From: Haloferula rosea
Lineage (GTDB): Bacteria; Verrucomicrobiota; Verrucomicrobiia; Verrucomicrobiales; Akkermansiaceae
Length of the DNA stretch: 64,000 nucleotides
Assembly: GCF_016595525.1 (NCBI RefSeq)
Contig: NZ_JAENII010000006.1
Location: 186,001 to 250,000, forward strand
Reading direction: 5' to 3'
Position 1 is the stretch's first letter, and the number at the start of each line of letters is the position of its first letter. Under the pieces are notes generated by a model. It worked only from the letters and a program-made list of their open reading frames with translations. It made no database searches and had not been told where the DNA came from. Positions 4,740 through 64,000 of the stretch are shown one piece after another. The translations under genes were made by a program, and so were the position numbers.

Positions 4740-6284
4740 TCAGCGGAAAATGATGAAGAAGGCGATGACGCCTGCGATCACGAGTGCACCGCAGATTTTC
4801 ACGACGGGCTCGGTCTTGATGGCGACTTCCTCGCGGATCGGGAGGGTGCGGGGTTCCGAGAGTGGATTGACCAGGGTCATGATCAGCATGACGGTCGACA
4901 CCCCAAGGAAGGCGATGAGCACCTGGTGGAGGAAGAACAGCCCGTGCGTTTCCTGGGTGAACTGGAGGATGCCGTAGAACAGGGGGCCGAGAAGCAGGGC
5001 GACCGCACCGGCGGCCTGGGGTGCCTTCGGCATGAGGAAGGCGAACACGAAGGCGGCGACCACGCCGGGCCAGATGTAGCCTTGGAACTGCTGGATGAAC
5101 TTGAAGACGCCGCCGAATTCCGGGTTATCGAGGACGGGGGCGATGGTGCAGCCGATGGCGACGATGCCCACGGTGAGCAACCGACCGAGCCAGACGAGGT
5201 TCTTCTCACTCACCTCTGGATTGATGAGTCCGCGGTAGATGTCCATGGTGGCAATCGTCGAGGACGAGTTGAGCAGCGAGGCGAGGGTGGAGGTCACGGC
5301 ACCTGCGATGGCCGCATAGATGAGGCCGCTGATTCCCGGTGGGATGAGCTCCTTGATCAGGGTGGGGAAGGCGGCGTCGGGCGTCGGCAGCTTGTCGGCG
5401 AAAAGCTGGTTCGCCATGAGTCCGGGCATGACGATGGCGAATGGCACCAGCAGCCACAGCGCTCCGGCGAAGATCATGCCGAGCTGGCCGTGCTTCAGCG
5501 TCTTGGCGGCCAGATTTCGCTGCACGATGAATTGGTTCAGGCCGCAGTAGTAGATCATCACGATCCACATGCCCGACAGGATGCCGGTCCACGGGAGTTC
5601 CGGGTGGTCCGCTGGCAGGATCATGTGAAGGCTGTCGGCATTGGTGGTGGTGAAGGCCTCCCAGCCACCGACGGCTTTCAACCCGAAGAAGAAGACGAGC
5701 AGTCCGCCGCCGATCAGGGCGAGCCCCTGGACGAGGTCGGCCCAGGCGATGGCCTTGAGGCCGCCGAGCGTGGAATAGAACATCCCGATCGCACCGATGA
5801 TGATCACCCCTTGCCACAGCGGCAGCCCCACGATGGCGCGCATCGTCACGCCACCGGAGTAGAGCACCGCGGGAAGCATCACGACGGCGTAGATGATGAC
5901 CGTGAGGATGGCCATGATGCCGCGTGCGGTGCGGTTGTAGCGATACTCGAGGAACTCAGGCATGGTGTAGATGCCGGCCCGCAGGAAGCGCGGGAGAAGG
6001 GACATCGAAACCACCACGATGAAGACCGAACCAAGAAGCTGCCACGCGCTCACGGCGAGCCCCGTGCCGCCAGCGGCTGAGCCGGCCATGCCTACCATTT
6101 GCTCGGTCGAGATATTTGCCGCGACGATCGAGATCCCGATCAGTGGCCAGGTCAGGCTGCGGCCTCCGAGGAAGAAGTCGGAAGAACTTTGGTCGGCTCC
6201 AGCTGCTCGTCGACTTTTCCAGACCGACAGTCCGATGACGAAGACGAAGAAAAGGACGAATGAGATGAGTGATAGAGAGTGCAC
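4740..6284 (-). CDS. Sodium:solute symporter (SSS family, SGLT-like)
   Basis: A 514-residue protein rich in hydrophobic segments, with about 13-14 transmembrane helices, which is the normal size for the SSS family. Family-typical features are the first loop 'DFFLGGRSLTWPLIGISI' and 'AANISTEQMVGMAGSAA' in the sodium-site region, then 'YRYNRTARGI' and the mid-protein 'ALWLLVPFAIVMPGLMA' stretch. The start is GTG at 6284 (reads HSLSLISF next). The gene is 54 bp upstream of the DUF5107/TPR gene and two genes from the GH2 enzyme, so it probably imports the sugar that enzyme releases, using the sodium gradient. The exact sugar is unknown. A 13-bp palindrome lies just upstream. Confidence 0.9.
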   Translation of the reverse strand: MHSLSLISFVLFFVFVIGLSVWKSRRAAGADQSSSDFFLGGRSLTWPLIGISIVAANISTEQMVGMAGSAAGGTGLAVSAWQLLGSVFIVVVSMSLLPRFLRAGIYTMPEFLEYRYNRTARGIMAILTVIIYAVVMLPAVLYSGGVTMRAIVGLPLWQGVIIIGAIGMFYSTLGGLKAIAWADLVQGLALIGGGLLVFFFGLKAVGGWEAFTTTNADSLHMILPADHPELPWTGILSGMWIVMIYYCGLNQFIVQRNLAAKTLKHGQLGMIFAGALWLLVPFAIVMPGLMANQLFADKLPTPDAAFPTLIKELIPPGISGLIYAAIAGAVTSTLASLLNSSSTIATMDIYRGLINPEVSEKNLVWLGRLLTVGIVAIGCTIAPVLDNPEFGGVFKFIQQFQGYIWPGVVAAFVFAFLMPKAPQAAGAVALLLGPLFYGILQFTQETHGLFFLHQVLIAFLGVSTVMLIMTLVNPLSEPRTLPIREEVAIKTEPVVKICGALVIAGVIAFFIIFR

Positions 6285-6334
6285 GGGTTTGGGCTTTGGA
6301 GCATGCTATCGGAAGTGATGGCTTCCTATGGTCT

Positions 6335-6347
6335 GTTTTCAGAAAAC
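6335..6347. promoter_or_regulatory. Perfect 13-bp palindrome upstream of the symporter operon
   Basis: GTTTTC-A-GAAAAC reads identically on both strands and lies 51-63 bp upstream of the GTG start of the symporter gene. Position and symmetry fit an operator for a carbohydrate repressor, but no regulator gene is adjacent and no second copy was found, so this is a candidate only. Confidence 0.3.
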
Positions 6348-6553
6348 ATTTGTCCAAACCGTTCGCATCGGTGATCCAAGGGCACTGGCTTGCCGTGCTT
6401 CGGGGATTTTTCCGCCTTGGACCGGGCCTGGGATTCGTCCTGTGGTTGCTCTTGTTCGCGGTCGTTGAGTCCGCGAAGACGGTGGTTGAACCACTCCCTG
6501 CTGGTGCGGAAGGGCTTCCTTCACCGGCGGAGGAACGGGTGCTGGGCGAGTCG

Positions 6554-6609
6554 CCGGAGGAGTGATGAAGTCCGGGTGGCCGGAGGAGTGATGAAGTCCG
6601 GGTGGCCGG
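6554..6609. repeat. Tandem repeat, two 26-bp units plus CCGG
   Basis: The unit CCGGAGGAGTGATGAAGTCCGGGTGG (split here as CCGGAGGAGTGATG and AAGTCCGGGTGG) occurs at 6554-6579 and 6580-6605 without mismatch, followed by CCGG. The right end also forms a hairpin, AAGTCCGG-GTGG-CCGGACTT (6594-6613), directly beside the tmk stop. It may act as a transcript end for tmk, or be a small mobile palindromic repeat. Confidence 0.75.
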
Positions 6610-6614
6610 ACTTT

Positions 6615-7187
6615 TCACTGCAAGGCCTCGCGCAGGCTGGCCTGGACCTCGGCGATGGGGCGATTGGTATCGATGACGTGGACGAAGGGCTCTTCGGCAA
6701 GGCCGAGGAAGATCTCGCGGCATTTGGCCAGTGAGTCGCGCTTTTCGAACTCGTTGGTGGTGTCGCCGCGGGCACCGATCCGCTCGCGGGCGGCATCGAC
6801 ATCGAGATCGAGGATGAACAGGTGATCGGGACGGGGGGCGAAGGCTTCGTTCTTGGCGCGGATTTCGCGTGGGTTGAAACCGCGGCTCCCCTGATAGGCC
6901 ATGGTGGAGAAGTAGTAGCGATCGAGGATGACGACCTTCCCGGCATCGAGGGCGGGACGGATCAGCTCGTCGATGTGCTGTTTCCGGTCCTTGAGGAAAT
7001 ACTCCAGTTCGTCCTCCGGCGACAGGCGTCCGGTCGCGGCGGACTCGCGCAGCTTCTTTCCCCACGGTTGATCGGTGGGTTCACGACTGGTCACGACCTC
7101 GCGCCCCTGACTGCGGAACCAATCGGCGAGGAGTTGGACCTGCGTGGACTTGCCGGTTCCGTCGATGCCTTCGAGGACGATGAACAT
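6615..7187 (-). CDS. tmk: Thymidylate kinase
   Basis: Phosphorylates dTMP to dTDP with ATP in the cytoplasm, an essential step of dTTP synthesis. The chosen ATG at 7187 gives 190 residues beginning 'MFIVLEGIDGTGKST', which places the P-loop (EGIDGTGKST) at the extreme N-terminus as in other Tmk proteins; a longer frame starting further upstream would add unrelated residues. The 'DRYYFSTMAYQG' motif (DRY/DRH class) and a LID-like segment 'ERIGARGDTTNEFEKR' are present, and the length is slightly short of the usual 200-215. It stands alone between the symporter operon and a divergent phosphatase gene. Confidence 0.93.
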   Translation of the reverse strand: MFIVLEGIDGTGKSTQVQLLADWFRSQGREVVTSREPTDQPWGKKLRESAATGRLSPEDELEYFLKDRKQHIDELIRPALDAGKVVILDRYYFSTMAYQGSRGFNPREIRAKNEAFAPRPDHLFILDLDVDAARERIGARGDTTNEFEKRDSLAKCREIFLGLAEEPFVHVIDTNRPIAEVQASLREALQ

Positions 7188-7367
7188 GTGCGGGAGTCTT
7201 GGGAATGGCGGGCACCCGCGCAAAGCTGAAATGAGGGGGAATGCTCCGTGGTCCAATGAGGCGGATCTGGCTGAGCGCACGGGGTGTTATGCAGGCGGTT
7301 GATGGTGGTCGGTGGAGGAAGCAGATACGCCTGTAAGGATGGCAGTATTTGATCGGTATTCGCTGAT

Positions 7368-9668
7368 ATGGTGATGTTTGTTCGTGTAATGCTCGGAATT
7401 CTAGGGGTGGGTTTGCTCGCTGCAGAAGAGCCCCTGCGGGTGCTGGTTTGGAATACCGAGAGGGGGTCGAACCCGTATGGTCCAGCGGGGAAAGAGCGGG
7501 TGCTGAAGGTAATCAAGGACAGCAAGGCGGACGTGGTCTTGTGGCAGGAGAGCTACCCGCTGGAGGGCATGGACGAGACTCTGGGAGCGTGGGTGTCGAA
7601 GCAGCTGGGGTGGAACTTCTGGCAGGGGGAGAGCCCGCATCTGGCGGTGGCGACCCGCTTCACGCCGATCGAGCGAGACTTCCAGCATCCGTGGCATGGC
7701 CTGGGGGCGAGGTTGAAGGATGATGCAGGGCGGGAATTCGTGGCGTGGAGCATCTGGCTCGACCACCGGGCTCCGGTGCAGTGGGCGTCGGTGGCCGAGC
7801 CCTCGCCGAGCGATGAGGAGTTGCTGGCCTGTGACACGACCCTGTCCGATCGCTTCAAGCAGGCACAGGCCTTGTTGGATGATCTGGACCGAAGGGGCCT
7901 CCTTGATGCCCAAGTGCCGGTACTGGTCGGCGGGGACTGGAATTGCTCATCCCATCTCGATTGGACGGCTCGGGCTGCGGAGAAATTTCCGCATCGGCGT
8001 CCTCTGGCGTTGCCGATCAGTCGATTGATGCACTCGGCGGGGTTTGATGATGCGTTCCGTGTGGTCCATGCGGATCCGGCCGAGCATCCGGGAACTACCT
8101 GGACTCCGCGAGGTGACCAGCGGGAGGACGGCAGTCCGGACCCTCCGGAGCGGATCGACCGGCTGTATGTGAAGAACGCCATCGGCCGCCCTGCCCTGCA
8201 ACCGGTGAAGGCAACGGTGTTTCCGCTGAATCCGGAGGATGCCCGGGCGCCCAGGACCGAAGCGGTGTTTCCGAGTGATCACGCCGCGACCTTGATCGAG
8301 TTCGAGTGGGTCGAGGCGGACGGAGCGACCGCAGGGGCCTTCGAGCCCGAACCGGCCTCTGCGTCCCCGGGATTGGATCATCGCGCGCCGAAGGAGGTGG
8401 AGCCGGGTTTCGCGCCGACGCGCATTGCGTGGGGCTCGTGTTTCCGGGAGTCACAGCCATGCCCGATGCTGGACACCCTCGGGAAGGAGAAGCCCGAGCT
8501 CTACTTCGCCCTCGGCGACAACATCTACGGGGATACCCAGGACATGGGATTACTACGGATGAAGTACCGCCGGCTGGCACGGCATCCCGGGTGGCGGGCG
8601 TTGACCGACACGGCACGTGTGATCGCCACCTGGGATGATCACGACTACGGAGCCGACGACTCGGGAGAAAACTACAAACCCCGGGAGGCTTCCAAGGAGA
8701 TCTTCCTCGATTTCTTTGATGAGCCAGCCGGCAGTGTCCGGCGGAAGCGTGAGGGGATCCACGCTTCCTCCATGCTCGGACCTGAAGACCGCCGTATCCA
8801 GTGCCTGATGCTGGATCTGCGGACGTTCCGATCGGATCTCATCCGCGATGACGCCAAGCCCTACCCAGAGCTGGGAAGGTATCGCGCGCTCCGGGATGAC
8901 GAACCCCAGAGGATGATGAGTGAAGCGCAGTGGGCATGGCTTGAGGAGGAACTCAATAAACCGGCCAGGCTGCGCCTGATCGGCCTGTCGACCCAACTCG
9001 GCAGCGGTCACAATGGTTATGAGGCATGGGCCAACATGCCGAAGGAGCGGGAGCGATTCTTTGCGCTGCTGGAGAAAACGAAGGCAGAAGGGGTGATTCT
9101 CCTGTCGGGCGACACCCACTGGGCGGAGGTGAGTCTGGTCGAACGTCCCGGACTCTATCCGATCTATGATCTGACATCGAGCAGTCTGAACCAGCAATGG
9201 GATCCACCGGGCGCCAACCCGAACCGGATCGGCACGGCCTACACGAAACCCAATGCCGGGGTGATGGATATCGATTGGGAGGCTGGCATGGTGAAGACAC
9301 GCATTCTTGATGCCTCGGGCGGCACTCGGATCGCCCTTGAGATTCCGATGGATCAGCTCCGATCGGGGGTTGCTGGAACCGAAGCCGATGTGTCGGGTGT
9401 CTGGGAGTCGGCCTTCGGTGAATTGCATCTCGAGCAGGATGGCGCCGCGTGGAAGGGGCGCTATCCGGGGGGGAGCTGCACATTGACCGAGCAGGACGGA
9501 GTTTATGTCGGGCGGTGGTCCGAGGGAGAGCGTGGGGGAGTCTGTCGCTTCCGGCTGTCATCCTGCGGGCGCTTTCTTCAGGGGGCCTACGGACGCGGAG
9601 AGGGTGAAGCACTGCTGCCGTGGCCGGCGTGGCGTGCCGATGCCGTTGGCGTCGAGTTCGTGAAGTGA
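7368..9668 (+). CDS. Fusion of endonuclease/exonuclease/phosphatase domain and PhoD-like phosphatase
   Basis: The 766-residue protein starts with a short signal-like hydrophobic stretch. Residues about 22-320 form an EEP (DNase I/exonuclease III) domain with Asn in 'VWNTERG', Glu in 'LWQES', 'GGDWNCSS' and terminal 'SDHAA'. Residues about 355-665 form a PhoD-type calcineurin-like metallophosphatase with 'WGSC', 'ALGDNIYGD', 'TWDDHDYG' and 'SGDTHWAEV'. A C-terminal segment of about 90 residues (after 'VSGVWES') looks like a small all-beta module of the kind that ends with 'GRW...G' turns. Both active-site sets look complete. It is divergent from tmk. A secreted phosphodiesterase/phosphomonoesterase that scavenges phosphate from nucleic acids or lipids is a reasonable inference. 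ATG at 7374 is an alternative start. Confidence 0.85.
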   Translation: MVMFVRVMLGILGVGLLAAEEPLRVLVWNTERGSNPYGPAGKERVLKVIKDSKADVVLWQESYPLEGMDETLGAWVSKQLGWNFWQGESPHLAVATRFTPIERDFQHPWHGLGARLKDDAGREFVAWSIWLDHRAPVQWASVAEPSPSDEELLACDTTLSDRFKQAQALLDDLDRRGLLDAQVPVLVGGDWNCSSHLDWTARAAEKFPHRRPLALPISRLMHSAGFDDAFRVVHADPAEHPGTTWTPRGDQREDGSPDPPERIDRLYVKNAIGRPALQPVKATVFPLNPEDARAPRTEAVFPSDHAATLIEFEWVEADGATAGAFEPEPASASPGLDHRAPKEVEPGFAPTRIAWGSCFRESQPCPMLDTLGKEKPELYFALGDNIYGDTQDMGLLRMKYRRLARHPGWRALTDTARVIATWDDHDYGADDSGENYKPREASKEIFLDFFDEPAGSVRRKREGIHASSMLGPEDRRIQCLMLDLRTFRSDLIRDDAKPYPELGRYRALRDDEPQRMMSEAQWAWLEEELNKPARLRLIGLSTQLGSGHNGYEAWANMPKERERFFALLEKTKAEGVILLSGDTHWAEVSLVERPGLYPIYDLTSSSLNQQWDPPGANPNRIGTAYTKPNAGVMDIDWEAGMVKTRILDASGGTRIALEIPMDQLRSGVAGTEADVSGVWESAFGELHLEQDGAAWKGRYPGGSCTLTEQDGVYVGRWSEGERGGVCRFRLSSCGRFLQGAYGRGEGEALLPWPAWRADAVGVEFVK

Positions 9669-54556: not shown

Positions 54557-54792
54557 GGAGGGGAGGGAAAGGGTAAGGAGCGCGGGCAATCCTGCCCGCG
54601 GTGAGGAGGTAGCGGGAGGGTAGGGAGCGCGGGTTTTCCAACCCGCTGAGTGGGAGTAGGAGGAGGGAAGAATCAGTAGAGGGGAGACAGCGGGTTGCAG
54701 ACCCGCGCTCCGGAGTCCGGGAGCCCGGGCTGTGGGCTTGTCACTCAAGGGCGGGCTCGGTTGGACACTCCCGTACCAACTCGCAACCGCGC
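54557..54792. repeat. Composite palindromic repeat, copy 1
   Basis: This 236-bp stretch matches 56013-56242 closely along its length. It contains at least three hairpin units: GCGGGCA-ATCC-TGCCCGC, GCGGGTT-TTCC-AACCCGC and GCGGGT-TGCAG-ACCCGC, joined by purine-rich linkers (GGAGGGGAGGGAAAGGG) and ended by a constant tail GGGCTGTGGGCTTGTCACTC and then CCAACTCGCAA. It is a REP/MITE-like family of Verrucomicrobiota by appearance. It lies just after the sulfatase gene. Confidence 0.85.
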
Positions 54793-55128: not shown

Positions 55129-55728
55129 ATGGAAAGCCAACGATCCCAGCTTCTGCGCCTTGCGGGGGAGTCACGCCTACTGCGTGAGGAGCGGCTGCGT
55201 GAGGCCGGGATCAGTAGTACGGTGATCTCGCAGGCGGTGAAGGCGGGTGAGCTGATCCGGCTGTCGCGAGGAGTTTACCACCATCCCGAGGCGGAGCTTG
55301 ACGAGAACCTGAGCCTTTCCGAAGTGGCGGCTCGGGTTCCTCATGCAGTGATCACACTTCTTTCCGCGCTGCAGTTTCACCAGATTGGAACCCAGCAGCC
55401 GCATGCGGTTTGGATTCTCATGAAGCAGAATGCGGTCACTCCAAGGATCGACTATCCACCGCTCGAAGTGGTTCGCAGTAGTGTGGCTGCGTCTCTTTCG
55501 GCAGGCGTCGATATCCATCCACTCAATGACATTCCCGTCCGGATGACCAATCCAGCGCGTACCGTGGTCGACTGTTTCAAATACCGGAACCGGGTCGGTC
55601 TCGATGTCTGCCTGGAAGCACTCAAGGATGTCCTGCAACGAGGTCTGAAGCCCGTTGAAGTGATGGACTATGCCAAAATCCAGCGGGTCACGAGCGTGAT
55701 CCGTCCCTACCTCGATGCTCTCGTCTGA
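55129..55728 (+). CDS. abiEi: AbiEi-type antitoxin/transcriptional repressor
   Basis: 199 residues with the AbiEi layout: an N-terminal winged helix ('REAGISSTVISQAVKAGELIRLSRGVYHHPE' in part) and a C-terminal domain ('LSEVAARVPHAVITLLSALQFHQIGTQ', 'VRMTNPARTVVDCFKYRNRVGLDVCLEAL' in part). Type IV AbiE systems use this protein to repress the operon and neutralise the toxin AbiEii. Its reading frame is complete. The toxin gene starts at 55732, 3 bp after the stop, but is truncated. A perfect inverted repeat immediately upstream fits autoregulation. Confidence 0.9.
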   Translation: MESQRSQLLRLAGESRLLREERLREAGISSTVISQAVKAGELIRLSRGVYHHPEAELDENLSLSEVAARVPHAVITLLSALQFHQIGTQQPHAVWILMKQNAVTPRIDYPPLEVVRSSVAASLSAGVDIHPLNDIPVRMTNPARTVVDCFKYRNRVGLDVCLEALKDVLQRGLKPVEVMDYAKIQRVTSVIRPYLDALV

Positions 55729-55731
55729 ACC

Positions 55732-56214
55732 ATGAACCTCGTCGCCTCACTCCAGGACCGACTCAAGAACGAAGGGCGGCGAAGGGGCATTCATTATGCC
55801 TCCTTGCTGGAGCAATTTGCCCTCAGTCGCTTTTTTGCGCGCCTGGCTCAGAGTGACTACGCGGATCGCTTTGTCCTCAAAGGGGCCCAGCTGTTCCGCT
55901 TTCTGAACGAAGAGGGACACCGCCCGACCCGGAATGCCGATTTCCTCAGTTTTGGCGATCATGATCCCGAAGCGCTGAAAGCGATTTTCACTGAGATTTG
56001 CCAGCTTACGCCGGAGGGGAGGGAAAGGGTAAGGAGCGCGGGCAATCCTGCCCGCGGCGTGGAGGTAGCGGGAGGGTCAGGAGCGCGGGTTTCCAACCCG
56101 CTGGGCGGAGGGGAGGGAAGAACCAGGAGAGGGGAGACAGCGGGTTGCAAACCCGCATTCCGGATTCCTGGAGCCTGGGCTGTGGGCTTGTCACTCAAGG
56201 GCCGGCACGGTTAG
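55732..56214 (+). pseudogene. abiEii: Truncated AbiEii-type toxin gene (nucleotidyltransferase fragment)
   Basis: The first about 93 codons match AbiEii toxins: 'DRFVLKGAQLFRFLNEEG' then 'RPTRNADFLSFGDHDPEALKAIF'. In this family the catalytic motif is normally 'RPTRDxDxL'; here the first Asp is Asn. From about 56013 onward the frame enters the palindromic repeat ('TPEGRERVRSAGNPARG...') and continues to a stop at 56214 with no further family sequence, so at least two thirds of the toxin (usually around 300 residues) is missing. I call it inactive. The partner antitoxin gene is intact. Confidence 0.85.
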
Positions 56215-56242
56215 ATGCTCCCGTGCCAACTCGCAAACGCGC
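56013..56242. repeat. Composite palindromic repeat, copy 2, inside abiEii
   Basis: Same architecture as 54557-54792, with the same order of three hairpins and the tail GGGCTGTGGGCTTGTCACTC. It interrupts the AbiEii reading frame, so it either transposed into the gene or arose through recombination with copy 1, removing the rest of the toxin gene. The right end continues into CCAACTCGCAA as in copy 1. The two copies are direct repeats flanking 1.2 kb that includes the antitoxin. Confidence 0.85.
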
Positions 56243-56370
56243 TTTCAAGAGGGTGGCCCACAATCCCCCCCGGAAAGACAGATCCCCCGAACGCGGGATC
56301 TTCGATGCCGCCTGCTCCATGGGCGGGGCTGGCATCCAGCGCATCGCCGACATATGAATTTTCCCCAATA

Positions 56371-57999
56371 ATGCCTGCCCGCAAACGTGCCGCCAAAACG
56401 GCGAAGAAGAAAGACTCCACCGCCCACCTCGGCTTCGAGGCGAAGCTCTGGCTCGCCGCCGACAAGCTCCGCAACAACATGGACGCGGCGGAATACAAGC
56501 ACGTCGTCCTCGGGCTCATCTTCCTCAAATACATCTCCGACGCCTTCGAGGACCACCGTGCCAAGCTTCTCGCCGGGGAGGGTGACTACGCCGGGGCCGA
56601 TCCGGAGGATCCGGACGAATACCGCGCCGAAAACATCTTCTGGGTGCCGCAGGAGGCCCGCTGGTCCCATCTCCAGGGCCGCGCCAAGCTGCCGACCATC
56701 GGCACGGACGTGGACGACGCCATGGACGCCATCGAGCGCGACAACCCACGACTCAAGGGCGCGCTCAACAAGAACTATGGGCGGGCAGATTTGGACAAGC
56801 ACCGGCTCGGCGAGCTGATCGACCTCATCGGCTCCATCGAGCTGAAGGAGGAGGCGGGCCAGTCGAAGGACATCCTCGGCCGCGTCTTTGAATACTTCCT
56901 CACCCAGTTCGCCAGCGCCGAGGGCAAGAACGGCGGGCAGTTCTACACGCCCTCCTGCGTCGTCCGCCTGCTGGTGGAAATGCTGGCACCCACGTCCGGC
57001 TCCCGCATCTACGACCCCGCCTGTGGCTCCGGCGGCATGTTCGTGCAGTCGGAAAAGTTCATCGAGTCCCATGGCGGCAAGCTGGGCGAAATCTCGGTCT
57101 ACGGTCAGGAGAGCAACCCGACAACCCGCCGCCTCGCCATCATGAACCTCGCCCTGCGCGGCATCGAGGCGGACTTCGGCAAGGAACACGCCGACACCTT
57201 CCGAAACGTCCAGCACCCCGACCTCCGCGCCGACTACGTGCTGGCCAATCCCCCCTTCAACGACAGCGACTGGCACCGCAAGGACGACGATGTGCGCTGG
57301 CAATTCGGCGTCCCGCCCAAGGGCAACGCCAACTTCGCCTGGGTCCAGCACTTCATCCACCACCTCGCGCCCAAGGGCATGGCCGGCTTCGTTCTCGCCA
57401 ATGGCAGCATGAGCTCGAACCAGTCCGGCGAGGGCGAGATCCGCAAGGCCATCGTCGAGGCCGACCTCGTCGACTGCATGGTCGCCCTGCCCGGCCAGCT
57501 CTTCTACTCCACCCAGATTGAGGTTTGCCTCTGGTTCCTTGCCCGCAACAAGAACGACGGGAAACGCCGGGACCGGCGCGGCGAAACCCTCTTCATCGAC
57601 GCCCGCAAGATGGGCAGCATGGTTAGCCGCGTGAACCGCGAACTCACCGGCGAGGACATCGCCAGGATCGCCGACACCTATCACCTTTGGCGTGGTGACC
57701 AAGGGTATGTAGTCCCGCCTTCAGGCGGATCGAAGAAGGACCGCCTAAAGGCGGAACTACGAACCTACGAAGACGTGCCCGGTTTTTGTAAATCGGCGAC
57801 CACCGAGGAGATCGGGAAACACGGCTTCGTCCTCACCCCGGGCCGCTACGTCGGTGCCGAGGAAGCTGAGGACGACGGCGAGCCCTTCGAGGAAAAGATG
57901 CCGCGCCTCGTCGCGGAGCTGAACGCCCAGTTCGCCGAGTCCGCGAAACTGGAGCAGGCCATCAAATCAAACCTGAAGGGGCTGGGGTATGGCGGGTGA
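56371..57999 (+). CDS. hsdM: Type I restriction-modification system, DNA methyltransferase subunit HsdM
   Basis: 542 residues from ATG 56371 ('[14 protein letters not shown]'). N-terminal HsdM helical domain ('[32 protein letters not shown]' in part), then the N6-adenine methylase with SAM motif '[10 protein letters not shown]' (D215) and catalytic 'NPPF' (N293), as expected for class gamma. Residues about 447-464 are encoded by a 52-bp palindromic element and are not in ordinary HsdM, where the text runs 'WRG...[12 protein letters not shown]'. The gene overlaps hsdS by 11 bp. No hsdR occurs in the window. Confidence 0.96.
57709..57760. repeat. 52-bp palindromic element inserted in frame in hsdM
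   Basis: Left arm GTAGTCCCGCCTTCAGGCGG (57709-57728) and right arm CCGCCTAAAGGCGGAACTAC (57741-57760) pair with 18 of 20 matches around a 12-nt centre. It lies within hsdM, keeps the reading frame and adds about 18 residues ('[18 protein letters not shown]') between two otherwise contiguous family motifs. This recalls protein-coding palindromic elements described in Rickettsia. Confidence 0.8.
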
Positions 58000-59314
58000 T
58001 GCTGGCTCAGTCGTGACCATTGAGGAGTTGATGGCCGACGGCACCATTGTTGCTCACAAGGATGGGAACTACGGGTCGAACTATCCACGGGTTGAGGAGT
58101 TCGGGTCTGAGGGCGTGCCGTTCCTGACGGCGAAGTCCCTTCGCGAAGGCTATGTGGATATTGCTGGCGCACCACGCTTGGCGGACGAACGAGCCGATGG
58201 TCTGACGTTTGGATTTGTTCAGGAGAACGATGTGCTCCTTTCTCACAACGCAACGATTGGACGTGTTGCCATTGTCCCTCCGCATAAAGGACGCCTTCTG
58301 GTCGGAACTTCGCTGACCTACTTCCGCCTCAACCCGCAGAAGCTGCTTCCTCGCTATCTTGCAGTCTACTTTGCAGGGACGGAGTTCCAGAACCAGCTCG
58401 CGGCAGTGATGAGTCACTCAACGCGAAACCAGGTTCCGGTAACGGCGCAGCGAAAGTTGAGTGTCGTGGTCCCACCCCTCCCCGAGCAAAAAGCCATCGC
58501 GGCGGTGCTTGGGGCGCTGGACGACAAGATCGAGTTGAACCGGCGGATGAACGCGACGCTGGAGGCGATGGCGCGGGCGCTCTTCCAGAGCTGGTTCGTG
58601 GATTTCGACCCCGTCCGCGCCAAGCTAGATGGTCGCAAGCCCCCCAATCTCGACCCCGCCACTGCCGCCCTCTTCCCTGAGCACTTTGACCACGGCGATG
58701 ATGGTTTGCTTCCCGTCGGTTGGCGTCGTGCCTCCATCGAAGAGCTTTGCGAGATCAATGGATGGGCCCTCAGCAAGCGGGACGATCTGGAAACGCTCGA
58801 ATACATCGAGATTTCCGAGGTGAATCGCGGCAACATCTCGAATGTTGCAACCTACAATCGCGGAGAGGAGCCAAGCCGCGCTCGCCGCCGCCTCCGGCAT
58901 GGAGATACGGCGCTTTCCACGGTGCGTCCGGATCGCGGTGCCTACTTCCTCGCCCTAAATCCGCCTGAGAACCGAGTGGCTTCCACCGGCTTTGCCCTCC
59001 TCACGCCAACTGAGGCGCCATGGTCGTTCGTTCACGCAGCTATGACTCAGCAGGAAGTCTCCGACCACCTCGGCCAGATGGCCGATGGAGGTGCCTATCC
59101 TGCCGTTCGTCCTGAGATCATTGGGGCAATGCAGGTCGCCATTCCCGGTGAATCAAAGATCCTCGATGCATTCCACCGCATCTGCGCACCATTTTACGAA
59201 CAGGCGGAATCCAATCGAGTCCAATCCCGCACCCTCGCCACCCTGCGCGACACACTGTTGCCGAAGCTGCTGAGTGGGGAGGTTTCAATCGATCAAGTTG
59301 CCTTGGATGCCTAA
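57989..59314 (+). CDS. hsdS: Type I restriction-modification specificity subunit HsdS
   Basis: 441 residues with two target-recognition domains (about 5-185 and 240-425) joined by the conserved helices '[39 protein letters not shown]' and a matching set at the C-terminus ('[19 protein letters not shown]'; parts given). TRD1 has '[11 protein letters not shown]' and TRD2 '[12 protein letters not shown]'. It selects the DNA site for HsdM (and HsdR elsewhere). ATG overlaps the hsdM stop region by 11 bp, and its own stop overlaps the next gene by 8 bp, so the operon continues into the DUF6119 gene. Confidence 0.95.
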
Positions 59315-60893
59315 TCTTACCCTCACCATGTTCTTGCTGAAGGATTCGATCACGAATCCCGAGGACGCTTTGGATCCGGACAAGTCGAGAACTGCGATCC
59401 AGCTTGCGGATAATTCAAGTGTTTGGGGAACCTTGTTTGTAGGGGCACAGAAACGGGGAATCCCGGACTGGGTTGGGATGCTCAATCAGTTTCTGGTTGA
59501 ACCCGTGGTCGACGTTTACAGCGCGAGCATCGCGGCAGTTCTGATTGTTTGGCATGAAGAGCGTTATTTTGCCCTGACCTTTGGAAGTGGCAGGTTCCTG
59601 CTCGATCCCCGTGCTTGTGTTCGAGATTTCGGTCTCAAAGTAACCTTGAACCGCGTGGATCCCGCGAAGCTACGAAGTATGGACTCCAAGGTTTACGACG
59701 ATCTTGTGGTTTCAACCCGGAAGCAGCTCAGCCGCAGCGGAGCCGTCGCGAACTTTGAGTTGGATGTCGGGCGGGCACTATTGCGGGGTGTGACGGGCGA
59801 CGCTAACGACGGCGAAATCTTCAAGCGGCTGACGGGAGCTTCGGCACTTCGTTTTACGACGGAGCTTTCCTTTTCTCAGTTGGACGATATTCTTGAGGAG
59901 GTGGTTGCTGCGTACGAAGACACGACCTATCAGGCCAATTTCGGGTGGATCGACAATGTCCGGGAGGTGAACGAAGAACGCGCTGAGGAGCTAGATGGTT
60001 TGTTGGAAACGGCTCTACTTCAACCTGATGCCGGCGGGGCCTACCTAGCGCCCGCGGACGTGGTGGATTGGACTGAAATTGATGCCTTCAATTACACCGG
60101 CGGTAGTAGCGGCGTTGAATATCAGGATCTCTCTCTGCCCGCGTACGTTGCGATCCACATTGGAAAGGGGCAACCTCCTGACATAGCTGCTCTGAAACGC
60201 CATCGAGTGAAGGTGCGCAGAGACGGGCAACCTCAGTGGAGGGACGAATGGGCCGTTTACGAATGCATCGTTTGGGAGACGGACCTCAATGGACGAAAGT
60301 ATGTCCTCTTCGATGGCCGGTGGTTCGCGGTTGATCAGCAGTATGCCGCTAGCGTGCTTGGATATGTGGCATCAATCTCAGTGGATCCGTCAGGATTGCC
60401 GGACGGGACGGTTGGGGAATGGGAAGAGGTCTACAACGCCGCGGTCGAAACCGCTGATCCAGCGACCTACGCCCTCTTGGACCGGCAGTTGTTCACGCCT
60501 ACAGGCGGCGGATCGCAGATTGAGTTCTGCGATCTCCTGTCTTCTGGCTGTGAACTTGTTCATGTCAAAAAGCGTTCCGGTTCGGCGACCCTGAGCCACT
60601 TGTTTGCCCAAGGTTCAGTAGCAGCGGACTTGTTCCTCCAAGACCAAGGGCTTCGTGCAGCGGTCCGCCAGAATCTGACCACCGCTGGAAAGACGGGGCA
60701 TGCTGCGCTTATACCGCCCGATCGGCCTGTTCCTAATGATTTCGAGGTCGTCTATGCCGTCTTGGTGAAGCCCGGGCGACGCGCGTGGCCTCCACCACTC
60801 CCTTTCTTTTCCGCAGTCAACCTGATGCACCATGCTACACGGATTCAGAATCTTGGATTCCGAGTTTCGATTCGGCATGTCCGGCTCAACTAA
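59307..60893 (+). CDS. TIGR04141/DUF6119 sporadically distributed protein
   Basis: 528 residues from ATG 59307, which overlaps the hsdS stop (8 bp). Family-typical points are 'LTLTMFLLKDSITNPEDAL' at the start, 'YFALTFGSGRFLLDPRACVRDFGLKVTLNRV' (part) and 'HIGKGQPPDIAALKRH'. The family (TIGR04141, now DUF6119) has no known biochemical function but is often found beside restriction-modification genes. It appears visibly less GC-rich than its neighbours, consistent with horizontal acquisition. It probably acts as an accessory to this type I system or to an anti-phage module. Confidence 0.85.
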   Translation: MPNLTLTMFLLKDSITNPEDALDPDKSRTAIQLADNSSVWGTLFVGAQKRGIPDWVGMLNQFLVEPVVDVYSASIAAVLIVWHEERYFALTFGSGRFLLDPRACVRDFGLKVTLNRVDPAKLRSMDSKVYDDLVVSTRKQLSRSGAVANFELDVGRALLRGVTGDANDGEIFKRLTGASALRFTTELSFSQLDDILEEVVAAYEDTTYQANFGWIDNVREVNEERAEELDGLLETALLQPDAGGAYLAPADVVDWTEIDAFNYTGGSSGVEYQDLSLPAYVAIHIGKGQPPDIAALKRHRVKVRRDGQPQWRDEWAVYECIVWETDLNGRKYVLFDGRWFAVDQQYAASVLGYVASISVDPSGLPDGTVGEWEEVYNAAVETADPATYALLDRQLFTPTGGGSQIEFCDLLSSGCELVHVKKRSGSATLSHLFAQGSVAADLFLQDQGLRAAVRQNLTTAGKTGHAALIPPDRPVPNDFEVVYAVLVKPGRRAWPPPLPFFSAVNLMHHATRIQNLGFRVSIRHVRLN

Positions 60894-60906
60894 TCCATCA
60901 AGCTGC

Positions 60907-62982
60907 ATGCCACACAACTCGACACGTGCTCTCGAACTGCTCCGCCTCGGAACCCAGAATCCGTCCGCGGAGTTCCGCGACGGGCAAGAGGAAGCCATTC
61001 GCCATGTCGTCGAGGGGCTGGGCCGTTTGCTGGTGGTGCAAAAGACCGGCTGGGGAAAGAGTTCCGTGTATTTCATCGCGACGAAGTTGCTACGCGAGCA
61101 AGGCTTGGGGCCGGCGATCTTGATCTCTCCGCTCTTATCTTTGATGCGGAACCAGATCGCGGCGGCGGAGCGGATGGGTGTGCGGGCGCTGACGATCCAT
61201 TCCGGCAATACCGCCGATTGGGACGAGGTGAAGGAGCGGGTCAGAAATGATGAGGTGGACATTCTCCTCATTTCGCCTGAGCGGCTTTCGAATGAGTATT
61301 TCCGCAACGAGGTTCTTGGTCCGGTGGCGGGAAGGATTTCGCTGCTGGTGGTGGATGAGGCGCATTGCATTTCCGATTGGGGTCACGACTTCCGTCCGCA
61401 CTACCGCTTCATTGAGCGGATCGTTCGTCAGTTGCCCGCCAACCTTCGTCTGCTGGCCACCACAGCGACGGCAAACGAGCGGGTGATGAACGACCTGGAG
61501 CAGATCCTCGGGCCGAACCTTGAAGTTTCGCGAGGCGAGCTGGGGAGGCCGTCGCTTTTCCTGCAGACGATCCGCCTGGCGGGTCAGGCAGAGCGTCTGG
61601 CGTGGCTGGCACAACACCTGCCGGGGATTCCGGGCAGCGGGATCGTCTACACGCTGACGGTGAGGGATGCTGCCCAGGTGGCGGAGTGGCTCAGGTCGAG
61701 AGGGATCGAGGCGAGGGCCTACAGCGGTCAATCCGGCGACGAGCGCCCGGAGCTTGAAGATGCCCTGCTGCGGAATGAGGTGAAGGTGCTGGCGGCAACG
61801 ACGGCGCTTGGCATGGGATTCGACAAGCCGGATCTGGCATTCGTGATCCATTTCCAGATGCCGGGATCGGTGGTGGCTTACTATCAGCAGGTGGGGCGTG
61901 CAGGGCGCAACATTGATTCGGCCTACGGCATTCTCCTAAGCGGAGTAGAGGAGCAGGAGATCAACGATTACTTCATCGAAAGCGCCTTTCCCAAACGCGA
62001 GGAGGTGTCAGCGGTGCTGGATGCCTTGGGAGAGGCTGAGGAGGGCTTTTCCGTTCCGGAATTGATGGCTCGGGTGAACGCGACGATGGGCCGGATTGAT
62101 AAGGCGCTCTTGCTGATGAGTCTGGAGTCCCCGGCGGCGGTTGTGAAGGAGGGGACGAAGTGGAGGCTGACGGCGGCCGGGCTGTCGGAGGATTTTTGGA
62201 TTCGCGCCGAGAGGCTTACTTCGCTGCGTCGTGATGAGCAGCAGCAGATGAAGGACTATGTGGATCTGGAGACCGGGCACATGGAGTTTCTCATTTCGGC
62301 ATTGGACGGCGATCCTGCAGGATATGTCCCGCCCGGAGTGCCTGAGATTGCACAGGATGTGGAGCCCGGACTGATCTGGGAGGCGGAGAGTTTTCTGCGC
62401 AGGACGGGTTTGCCCCTGGAGCCGCGCAAGAGGTGGCCAAACGGAGGTCTGCCGCAGATGGGGGTGCGTGGAAACCTAGCGGAGGAGCTTCGCGCGGAGA
62501 GCGGAAGGGTGCTTTGCTATTGGGGCGGAGCTGGATGGGGGGAAGAGGTGCGGCGGGGGAAGTATCATGATGCGCGCTTTTCCGATGATCTGGTGGCTGC
62601 CTGTGTCGCCATGGTGGGCGACTGGAATCCGCATCCTGCACCGGAGTGGGTCACCTGTGTGCCGTCGCTGCGACACCCGGACTTGGTGCCGGATTTTGCC
62701 CGTCGGCTGGCTGCGGCCCTTGGATTGCCCTTTTTTGAAACCCTCCGGAAGACTGATGCTCGCCCGGAGCAGAAGACCATGGCCAACAGCATTCAGCAGG
62801 CCCGCAACATTGATGGATCGCTTGAAATCCTGAGTGGCAGCGTCCGGGAGGGCTCCGTCTTGCTGGTGGACGATATGGTGGATTCCAAATGGACCCTGAC
62901 TGTGGCAGCCTACCTCCTCAGGCAGCAGGGTAGTGGACCGATCCACCCGCTCGCACTGGCCACCACCGCCCACGCCGAATAA
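60907..62982 (+). CDS. RecQ-like DEAH helicase with C-terminal phosphoribosyltransferase domain
   Basis: 691 residues from ATG 60907 (ATG 60877 or 60832 possible). Helicase motifs: 'FRDGQEEAI' (RecQ-type motif 0), Walker A '[14 protein letters not shown]' (about 43-56), DEAH (150-153) in '[19 protein letters not shown]', '[11 protein letters not shown]', and in domain 2 '[26 protein letters not shown]' (part) and 'QQVGRAGR'. It lacks RecQ's zinc and HRDC parts; instead the C-terminus (about 520-691) resembles a ComF/type I phosphoribosyltransferase with the PRPP loop '[14 protein letters not shown]' (651-664). The next gene is a DprA-like protein, 2 bp away. Confidence 0.9.
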
Positions 62983-62984
62983 GC

Positions 62985-64000
62985 ATGGAAATCTCACCCA
63001 ACACCCAAGCCATCCTGCTGCTGACCGCTCCATTGATTGCGGGGAAGAAAGCGGAGCCTGCTCCTTTGTTGACGTTAAAGGACTACAACTGTTTCGCCCG
63101 TTGCCTGCGGGATGCGGGAAAAGAGCCAGCGGACCTGCTTGGGGCAGATGTTGGTGAGTTGTTGGACAGTTGCGGTGCACGCTATGGACGGGAGCGTCTG
63201 GAAGCCTTGCTCGCTCGGGGTTTCCTGCTCGGACAGGCGGCGGACCGTTGGCGTTCGCGTGGAATCTGGGTGATCAGTCGGGCTGATGCCTGCTATCCCC
63301 GCCGCTTGAAGGCTCGCCTGCGGGAAGCGGCGCCACCCATCCTTTACGGCTGCGGTGAACCTGGCCTGCTCGATGCAGGGGGCTTGGCCGTCGTAGGTTC
63401 CCGGCACGTGGACGATGAATTGGTGCGCTACACGACTCAACTGGGAGCGGTGGCCGCCGAAGCGGGAGTTGCGATCGTCTCCGGGGCGGCGCGAGGGATC
63501 GATAGTTCGGCGATGGCGGGTGCTCTGGATGCGGGAGGAAGAGTGATCGGCGTGATGGCGGATAGTCTTCAACGAGCCGCCTTGGCAAAGGGCAACCGTG
63601 ATGCATTTCGCGATGGGCGACTCGTCGTGGTGTCCGCGTACGATCCAGCGGCTGGATTCAATGTCGGGCATGCGATGCAGCGCAACAAGGCGATCTATGC
63701 TCTTTCCGATGCCGGACTGGTGGTGACCTCGGATTTCAAGAAGGGGGGAACTTGGGCAGGAGCGATCGAGCAGTTGGGGAAGCTCAAACTCGTCCCGGTC
63801 TTCGTGCGGAATGGGTCTGCTGCCGGGAAAGGAAATCAAGCCCTGCTCCAACAGGGAGGGGAGGCATGGCCTGAGCCGGCGACTGGAGAAGAACTCACGG
63901 AGGCCATTTGCAGGGCGAAGGAGGACCGCGCCAAGGAGCCCAAGCAGGAGTCACTTGGGCTGCCCCTTCGTGAGGAAGAGGGCAACTACGCGGCGGAATC
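62985..64000 (+). CDS. DprA-like DNA-processing protein, C-terminus beyond window
   Basis: The frame is open from ATG 62985 to the right edge (338 codons). An N-terminal helical part (about 1-100) is followed by a Rossmann-like DprA/Smf domain with '[13 protein letters not shown]', '[21 protein letters not shown]' (part), 'VIGVMADSL' and '[19 protein letters not shown]'. DprA loads RecA on single-stranded DNA in transformation, but this copy sits in a restriction island next to a helicase/phosphoribosyltransferase fusion, so a defence or ComF-like role is more probable. It follows the helicase gene after 2 bp. Confidence 0.88.

Follow-up and report, generated by a model that had tools for sequence, protein, structure and literature searches.

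The DNA analysed here, referred to as the window, is a stretch of 64,000 nucleotides from Haloferula rosea (contig NZ_JAENII010000006.1, positions 186,001 to 250,000 of the forward strand), at the end of which two adjoining genes, psyrT and psyrA, are found within a type I restriction-modification operon. The gene psyrT (60907–62982, + strand) is part of an open reading frame (ORF) that runs from 60832 to 62982. Its ATG at 60907 gives a predicted toxin of 691 residues, PsyrT (RqlH), which contains a RecQ-like helicase, a linker without zinc cysteines and a C-terminal ComF-like phosphoribosyltransferase (PRTase) domain, and which matches the PADLOC model PDLC03928 over residues 2–690 with 907 bits. 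A gap of 2 bp separates psyrT from psyrA (62985–64000, + strand, cut by the window end). The predicted antitoxin PsyrA (RqlI) consists of a DprA-like Rossmann domain and a C-terminal helix-turn-helix (HTH) region, and matches PDLC03927 over its full length with 442 bits. The whole psyrA gene (L008:9986-11257, L008 being the window locus) has its stop codon at contig position C66:250256 and encodes 423 residues. We consider it highly probable, at roughly 0.88, that this pair is a PsyrTA toxin-antitoxin module that resides as cargo between hsdS and hsdR of a complete type I restriction-modification operon; its identity as PsyrTA (RqlHI), a known bacterial toxin-antitoxin and phage-defence pair, is close to certain.

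The genes are arranged on one strand in the order AbiEi, truncated AbiEii, hsdM, hsdS, DUF6119/TIGR04141, psyrT, psyrA, ORF436 and hsdR, with hsdR present downstream, just beyond the window end. In view of this order, with hsdS on one side and hsdR on the other, PsyrTA lies inside a complete type I restriction operon, in which hsdM, hsdS and hsdR share the same strand. The type I methyltransferase HsdM (56215–57999, + strand) is recognized by N6_Mtase (355 bits), HsdM_N (92 bits) and the PADLOC model MTase_I (689 bits); its true start is probably located further in, since the HsdM_N match only starts at residue 75. The specificity subunit HsdS (57989–59314, + strand) matches Methylase_S and the PADLOC model Specificity_I (292 bits). 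A further passenger in the hsdS-hsdR slot is a DUF6119/TIGR04141 protein (59274–60893, + strand; PF19614 453 bits, TIGR04141 447 bits). An earlier note on the window had placed the helicase gene in a restriction island, which is borne out by HsdM, HsdS and DUF6119/TIGR04141 upstream and HsdR downstream.

In the psyrA-hsdR interval, ORF436 (436 residues; L008:11285-12595, contig C66:250284-251594) has neither a Pfam match over cut-off nor a PADLOC match, and shows a sub-threshold RWP-RK match (17.9 bits) near its N-terminus. The neighbours upstream of hsdM, outside PsyrTA, are an AbiEi-like antitoxin (55129–55728, + strand, PADLOC AbiEi 225 bits) and a truncated AbiEii-like ORF (55732–56214, + strand), in which the PADLOC AbiEii homology is confined to the first ~93 residues. 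Near residue 93 the latter is interrupted by a repeat (~56013–56242; L008 3014-3243) that is 88.6% identical over 236 bp to ~54557–54792 (L008 1558-1793).

Domain structure and identity of PsyrT and PsyrA

The helicase part of PsyrT (Pfam DEAD 82.7 bits, Helicase_C 56.3 bits) is of the RecQ-like superfamily 2 (SF2) type, with Walker and DEAH motifs. K51, D150-E151 and, in the loop for phosphoribosyl pyrophosphate (PRPP), D655-D656 are invariant across 47 aligned PsyrT sequences, the window protein included, and D659 is nearly invariant. No HRDC or RQC family was found in PsyrT by a Pfam scan, and a CxxCxxC motif is likewise absent. The RecQ-type motifs, the ORF, the DprA-like gene 2 bp downstream, the PRPP loop and the lack of zinc and HRDC parts had all been named in the earlier note, and for the window protein they are confirmed by the ORF coordinates, Pfam, PADLOC and the alignment.

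The PRTase domain call is based on the PsyrT model score of 907 bits, a match (E 5e-6) to PRPP synthetases in a profile comparison and a predicted ComF fold; the Pfam Pribosyltran match is under its curated cut-off (21.8 versus 26.3 bits). An AlphaFold2 model of whole PsyrT, built with 47 sequences, has a mean predicted local distance difference test (pLDDT) score of 89.9, and in this predicted fold the first ~480 residues resemble RecQ cores, with Z-scores of up to 38.1 (398 aligned residues, root-mean-square deviation (rmsd) 2.9). Because helicases filled the fold-match lists of the whole model, the C-terminal part (residues 478–691) was modelled separately, with a pLDDT of 92.1. Its top structural match is ComF from H. 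pylori (7p0h_A, Z 15.6, 177 aligned residues, rmsd 5.8), followed by the ShosT toxin (8zvd, Z 11.7, 157 aligned residues, rmsd 3.1; 8zvc, with PRPP-Mg, Z 11.7) and by adenine phosphoribosyltransferases with Z near 10.9. With ComF as best structural match, the previously proposed fusion of a helicase to a ComF-resembling phosphoribosyltransferase stands. As judged from the predicted model the resemblance to ComF is real, yet it is no proof of a competence gene. A phmmer search for solved structures of PsyrT or PsyrA listed chains of RecQ and of further helicases (among the best 60 of 120) and five chains of DprA, with neither PsyrT nor PsyrA among these matches.

An ordinary RecQ repair helicase next to a stray dprA gene would explain that PsyrT scores over the cut-off of TIGR00614 (228.1 versus 219.8 bits), but this explanation can nearly be discarded. 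The canonical RecQ equivalog TIGR01389 gives 263.8 bits against a cut-off of 640.2, PsyrT has no HRDC but a PRTase domain in its place, and the genome's two best other matches span only residues 22–383 and 22–372. In a Verrucomicrobiota sample of 387 genomes, full-length PsyrT (at least 854 bits) occurs 20 times in 19 genomes, plus one partial copy (G385), whereas the next-best matches reach at most 406 bits, mostly over the helicase part, with ~480 of 689 positions covered and up to 574 in a few of them. Owing to this score gap, from which the partial copy stands apart, the PsyrT family is clearly separable from RecQ; its distribution in the phylum is sporadic. Models of DpdF, a protein of 7-deazaguanine DNA modification, match the helicase part and a C-terminal piece of PsyrT, but the DpdF equivalog score (156.9 bits versus a cut-off of 550) rules out this identity, and no Dpd system was found among the other neighbours scanned at the window locus (Pfam, PADLOC). 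Carriage of PsyrT by phages was rejected as well: at E 1e-40 five of 50,697 phage records match, each over 42–50% of the protein, in the helicase part.

In PsyrA, residues 1–415 are covered by the PADLOC PsyrA model, DNA_processg_A matches with 119 bits, and several sub-threshold HTH matches are located in residues 360–419. The protein scores 80 bits on the ShosA model versus 442 bits on the PsyrA model, which places it outside ShosTA, and 84.9 bits on the DprA equivalog TIGR00732, below the cut-off of 191.15. A separate DprA in the same genome (C66:146892-147542) reaches 244 bits, over the family cut-off, and the ComEC-type family PF03772 is found on a different contig. These scores bear on the proposal in the earlier note of a competence-like module, derived from natural transformation and reused for processing incoming DNA. 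In its favour are the ComF match of the C-terminal domain (Z 15.6) and the DprA fold of the partner, as judged from sequence, and the comparison of RqlHI with competence is already in print (PMC4670107, Discussion; PMC5512222). The existence of the canonical DprA elsewhere in the genome, the restriction and toxin-antitoxin genes that form the scanned neighbourhood, and the description of the E. coli homologue as a genotoxin (PMC4670107) nevertheless make this origin very improbable.

The window pair has all constituents of PsyrTA/RqlHI, i.e., an SF2 helicase domain, a C-terminal PRTase with an acidic PRPP loop and, directly downstream, a gene for a DprA-like protein with HTH. The defence role that the earlier note had put forward is probably correct in view of the PADLOC PsyrT and PsyrA matches, although the pair was already known as PsyrTA/RqlHI. 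New are the zinc-less PsyrT clade, the restriction-embedded PsyrTA lineage and the insertion scars described below.

The collection used for comparison comprises 95 non-redundant PsyrT loci, after dropping of the duplicate records L069, L113, L116, L118, L135 and L136, and 77 of the 95 gave a full-length PsyrT. Clade proportions in this collection are not frequencies, because 80 loci were collected with patterns from the window's own clade. The CxxCxxC motif between helicase and PRTase (n = 77) is absent in all 49 proteins that are at least 58% identical to the window protein, itself included, and present in all 28 that are at most 55% identical. A quick tree without bootstrap, of 81 rows (the 77 proteins plus four plasmid copies), puts 50 zinc-less rows on one side of a branch with a support of 100 in the Shimodaira-Hasegawa-like approximate likelihood ratio test (SH-aLRT). 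Among the plasmid copies the motif is present in those of E. coli, Acinetobacter and Nostoc and absent in that of Sinorhizobium. CxxCxxC is therefore treated here as a feature of the other PsyrT clade and not as defining for PsyrTA. The window PsyrT belongs to a 16-row subclade that is mostly verrucomicrobial (support 99).

The hsdS-hsdR slot as a cargo site

Genes of the hsd operon, or their remnants, adjoin PsyrTA in 12 of the 16 rows of the window subclade. The order hsdS-psyrTA-hsdR is found in the window locus and in L053, L064 (where the genes leave the contig), L079 and L094 (with hsdR perhaps interrupted near its start), while remnants are found in L052, L059, L060, L065, L072, L076 and L078; no hsd genes were found beside PsyrTA in the subclade rows L067, L075, L093 and L120. 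Remnants of hsdR were also seen in L083, which is not in the tree. The order hsdS-psyrTA-hsdR extends beyond the subclade to L088, L091, L056 and L134, of which the latter two are close relatives. One analysis of 44 loci covered all but L066.

The arrangement recurs in the other PsyrT clade. On the E. coli plasmid NZ_OX030731 the annotated order is N-6 methylase, subunit S, RecQ helicase, DprA and subunit R, in which the hsdS-psyrT gap is 14 bp and the psyrA-hsdR gap 12 bp. PsyrTA of this type is present in 53 of 5426 E. coli genomes (54 records, 55 places), as is the adjacent hsdR (53/5426), and the places of PsyrTA and hsdR adjoin among the matches listed for both genes (40 of 54 records each). 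At identities of at least 99%, this co-occurrence may represent one recent spread.

The slot is also occupied in the absence of PsyrTA. Out of 20 related hsd regions taken, two had too little upstream sequence; in 16 of the remaining 18, which are related operons without PsyrTA, hsdS and hsdR are more than 400 bp apart (measured between tblastn ends). The cargo found in such slots includes DarTG (L053), a cyclase of the cyclic-oligonucleotide-based anti-phage signalling system (CBASS) type with SLATT_6 (L064), HEC-01B (L091), DUF3644 (L094), an HTH-ImmA and a PIN protein (L088), a RhuM protein (L078) and, in a slot without PsyrTA, the RhuM-type PDC-S05 (L169). In L053 (5306-12450), DarTG, PsyrTA and a metallo-beta-lactamase-fold protein are present together in one slot. 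The partnership with TIGR04141 that the earlier note had suggested does not hold, as DUF6119 is present in two of the 20 PsyrT-bearing genomes of the phylum sample (partial G385 included) and is adjacent in one, the window's own.

This variety of unrelated units, together with the widespread gap between hsdS and hsdR, is what would be expected if PsyrTA were a selfish passenger, i.e., an addiction pair residing in an insertion-tolerant slot with no functional tie to restriction. PsyrTA is also present at other sites. On an Acinetobacter plasmid (L190) it is followed by a DUF262 gene and lies within a bacteriophage exclusion (BREX) operon, in the pglX-pglZ interval, and at another site it adjoins a gene whose product we take, from our own reading of the protein and not from a search, to be guanylate-kinase-like. 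In addition, it outlives decayed hsd genes. On the other side, the scanned cargo consists largely of defence and toxin-antitoxin genes, not of random genes, and the E. coli PsyrTA and hsdR occur in equal numbers of genomes, though maybe as a result of one recent spread. We regard a purely selfish passenger as a serious candidate, with a chance that falls just short of even.

Direct repeats and hsdR stubs around PsyrTA

Stubs of the hsdR 5′ end are located just upstream of psyrT in L052, L053, L059, L060 and L076. They start at, or a few bases from, codon 1 and end at approximately codon 30 to 76. In L169, which has no PsyrTA, an hsdR 5′ stub with 90% identity precedes the RhuM-type gene. A match to the hsdR 5′ end was found in the slot at four of 24 loci, compared with one of 96 for control pieces from inside hsdR; two of the four (L176, L184) are 15–22 bp long and may be due to chance. 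For the hsdM 3′ end the numbers are 1/22 and, in the control, 1/66. The hsdR count left out L065, L072, L078, L083, L088 and L091, in which hsdR is broken or divergent.

Repeated hsd pieces were also seen in other arrangements. L078:12239-14967 contains three hsdR 5′ stubs that alternate with cargo in the manner of stacked cassettes, the cargo being a RhuM-family protein and an ORF that looks similar, and in L072:14425-15288 pieces of hsdR are repeated downstream of the decayed hsdR, next to PsyrTA. The hsdM-hsdS interval of L171 contains a copy of the hsdM 3′ end (50 bp, 78%) and a copy of the hsdS 5′ region (62 bp, 98%), which suggests, at the level of sequence, a possible second cargo slot with a like scar.

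Direct repeats (E at most 1e-6) that link the 1 kb before psyrT to the 1 kb after psyrA are present at ten of 74 testable loci. A locus entered the test if both gene ends were present and it extended by more than 150 bp to either side, which left out 21 of the 95. Controls gave 0/216 for mismatched pairs, 0/272 for window pairs of the same spacing and 1/74 for the inverted orientation; the difference from the same-spacing control is significant (Fisher p 1.2e-7). Six of the ten repeat pairs resemble duplicated ends of neighbouring genes, and the other four (L043, L047, L075, L122) look more like dispersed or other repeats than like target duplications. Attachment sites in tRNA genes were rejected as the source, as ARAGORN found no tRNA at the repeats in 12 loci that included all ten with repeats.

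The clearest case is the cyanobacterial locus L095 (Prochlorococcaceae). Its segments 512-2170 and 5611-7500 correspond to a single uninterrupted stretch of L193, with an overlap of 177 bp, and in comparison with the empty sites L194 and L197 the overlap is 179 bp, so that all three relatives contain a single copy of the repeat. The insert of 3,438 bp is almost gene-exact: psyrT starts at most 10 bp from its left end, and the psyrA stop codon extends into the right repeat. Seven relatives of L095 were compared, including these three empty sites, and the other four fall short of a clean empty site: L195 starts within the repeat, and no empty-site alignment was obtained for L198, L199 or L196, the last of which is from the PsyrTA-carrying L086 genome.

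Nobusato, Kobayashi and colleagues have reportedly described insertion with long target duplication for restriction-modification genes. In that process no known mobile element is involved and the duplicated target is ~100 bp long (PMC3874152, PMC3031569). The L095 insertion fits this pattern; it differs from the earlier restriction-gene cases in that the inserted unit is a toxin-antitoxin pair (PsyrTA, perhaps also AbiE) and in that, at other loci, the hsdR 5′ end served as the apparent target. The sequences suggest that PsyrTA-like pairs may enter genomes without a visible transposase, duplicating neighbouring sequence in the process.

Flanking repeats are not special to PsyrTA, because AbiE pairs of the same phylum (L204-L243) show them too: direct repeats of 37–195 bp flank seven of 40, a rate indistinguishable from that of PsyrTA (Fisher p 0.59). 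The AbiE test differed in that its upstream window was 2 kb long and contained the antitoxin gene, and in that the best-scoring loci were chosen. No flanking repeats were found at 12 RecQ genes (0/12, flanks of at most 1.5 kb). The AbiE repeats weaken the notion of self-mobilisation as a trait of PsyrTA only. They likewise argue against a drive specific to PsyrTA, in which PsyrT, as a helicase, and PsyrA, as a DprA-like annealing protein, would bring about their own insertion, and which we regard as improbable.

A broader scheme is put forward tentatively, and with somewhat less than even odds. PsyrTA and other toxin-antitoxin pairs would be bare cassettes that spread without a transposase, by long target duplication; entry into a restriction operon would duplicate the hsdR start and in this way keep the operon working, and repeated rounds would stack defence cassettes, each behind an hsdR 5′ stub. 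Irrespective of this scheme, the empty-site evidence at L095 implies that the genes of a toxin-antitoxin pair can be inserted as a gene-exact unit, along with a target duplication of 177–179 bp, which bears on how defence genes enter and accumulate in islands. The hsdR 5′ stubs are a scar that can be read from the sequence and tallied over many genomes.

Relation to restriction and comparison with known systems

Several observations weigh against the assignment of PsyrTA as defence-related cargo of type I operons. An HsdR N-terminal domain is located within 5 kb of PsyrT in only three of the 20 PsyrT-bearing genomes of the phylum sample (partial G385 included), which is a minimum, as several of these loci come from contigs of 4–9 kb. 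PsyrTA open frames survive beside decayed hsd genes in L065 and L072. The window locus itself contains neither direct repeats around PsyrTA nor a copy of the hsdR 5′ end in the slot. Finally, PsyrTA of E. coli NILS69 caused a growth defect upon expression and gave no detectable phage protection, according to PMC12409345. The three in 20 genomes rule out a tie of PsyrTA to all type I operons. The link to HsdMS made in the earlier note survives in part: PsyrTA recurs in the hsdS-hsdR slot, but as one of several cargo units, and 17 of the 20 genomes have no HsdR N-terminal domain within 5 kb.

These observations also bear on a closer relation, in which PsyrTA would act as a guard, monitoring the type I enzyme and becoming active once a phage disables restriction. 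The precedent is PrrC, an anticodon nuclease that is kept silent by the type I enzyme to which it is linked, until an anti-restriction peptide of a phage sets it free (PMC2610378). Other toxins are embedded in type I operons in a similar manner, the spacing in E. coli is tight (14 bp and 12 bp), and traces of hsd are kept in 12 of the 16 subclade rows. PsyrT already has its own antitoxin, however, and PsyrTA is found outside type I operons, which speaks against an obligate tie. Since its open frames outlast decayed hsd genes and are found next to a broken hsdR, PsyrTA need not rely on the restriction enzyme for silencing, unlike PrrC. Together with the 17 genomes mentioned above, this makes a guard function possible but doubtful.

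How PsyrTA, carried as cargo in the slot, might work can be outlined from the homologous RqlH-RqlI system. According to PMC4670107, E. coli RqlH is genotoxic: without RqlI it elicits the SOS response and growth is harmed. The toxicity requires the PRTase domain and its PRPP pocket, although the PRTase alone is insufficient, and RqlI binds and counteracts RqlH (PMC4670107). Helicase-dead RqlH mutants show a higher, not a lower, SOS response (PMC4670107), which suggests that the PRTase is held back by the helicase activity. By motif position alone, the RqlH mutants K49A, D148A and D663A (in DIVD) should correspond to K51, D150 and D659 of the window protein. By analogy, PsyrA and the helicase activity would keep the PRTase in check in a healthy cell, while the helicase part would place the PRTase on DNA. 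A phage-related event may then release the PRTase, whose reaction would disturb DNA metabolism and generate a damaging nucleotide or DNA adduct, so that growth stops before the phage matures. It is less certain, and rather unlikely, that PsyrTA in the slot provides a second line behind restriction, comparable to PrrC. The pair presumably came into the hsd operons by a gene-exact insertion with duplication of the hsdR start, so that a working hsdR would have remained.

Embedding of defence genes in type I operons has precedents. In enteropathogenic E. coli, DarTG2 is located exactly between hsdS and hsdR (RRDM island), a site that may be a recombination hotspot (PMC12255303), and TgvAB of V. 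cholerae lies inside a type I operon (PMC11411939); in this context, Payne 2024 is credited with the general idea of embedded defence genes (PMC12255303, PMC11411939). For PsyrTA in an hsdS-hsdR slot no report was found in the titles, abstracts and passages covered, mostly outside subscription journals. PrrC, DarTG2 and TgvAB are, like PsyrTA here, passengers linked to hsd genes, whereas the proteins themselves differ.

The closest known system is RqlH-RqlI of E. coli F11, in which, as in the window pair, the gene for a helicase-PRTase protein precedes that for a DprA-like protein containing an HTH; rqlH is upstream of rqlI wherever a genome has both (PMC4670107). The window PsyrT differs from RqlH-RqlI/PsyrTA in belonging to a clade without CxxCxxC, in its location within a type I operon and in its identity of 48.5% to the E. 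coli plasmid copy. Rousset and colleagues group shosTA, syrTA and rqlHI by their DprA-like antitoxins and have demonstrated that a DprA-PRTase pair protects against phages (PMC9122126); PsyrTA is named as an abortive-infection system in PMC10855318. ShosTA shares with PsyrTA the DprA-like antitoxin and the PRTase toxin, but no helicase is mentioned for it in the available text of PMC9122126, whereas the window toxin has a fused helicase. The transformation proteins ComFA/ComFC and DprA have a helicase, a ComF-type PRTase fold and a DprA fold in common with the window pair. In competence, however, ComFA and ComFC are separate genes, whereas the window PsyrT combines a RecQ-type helicase and a PRTase in a single protein and is found in a defence context.

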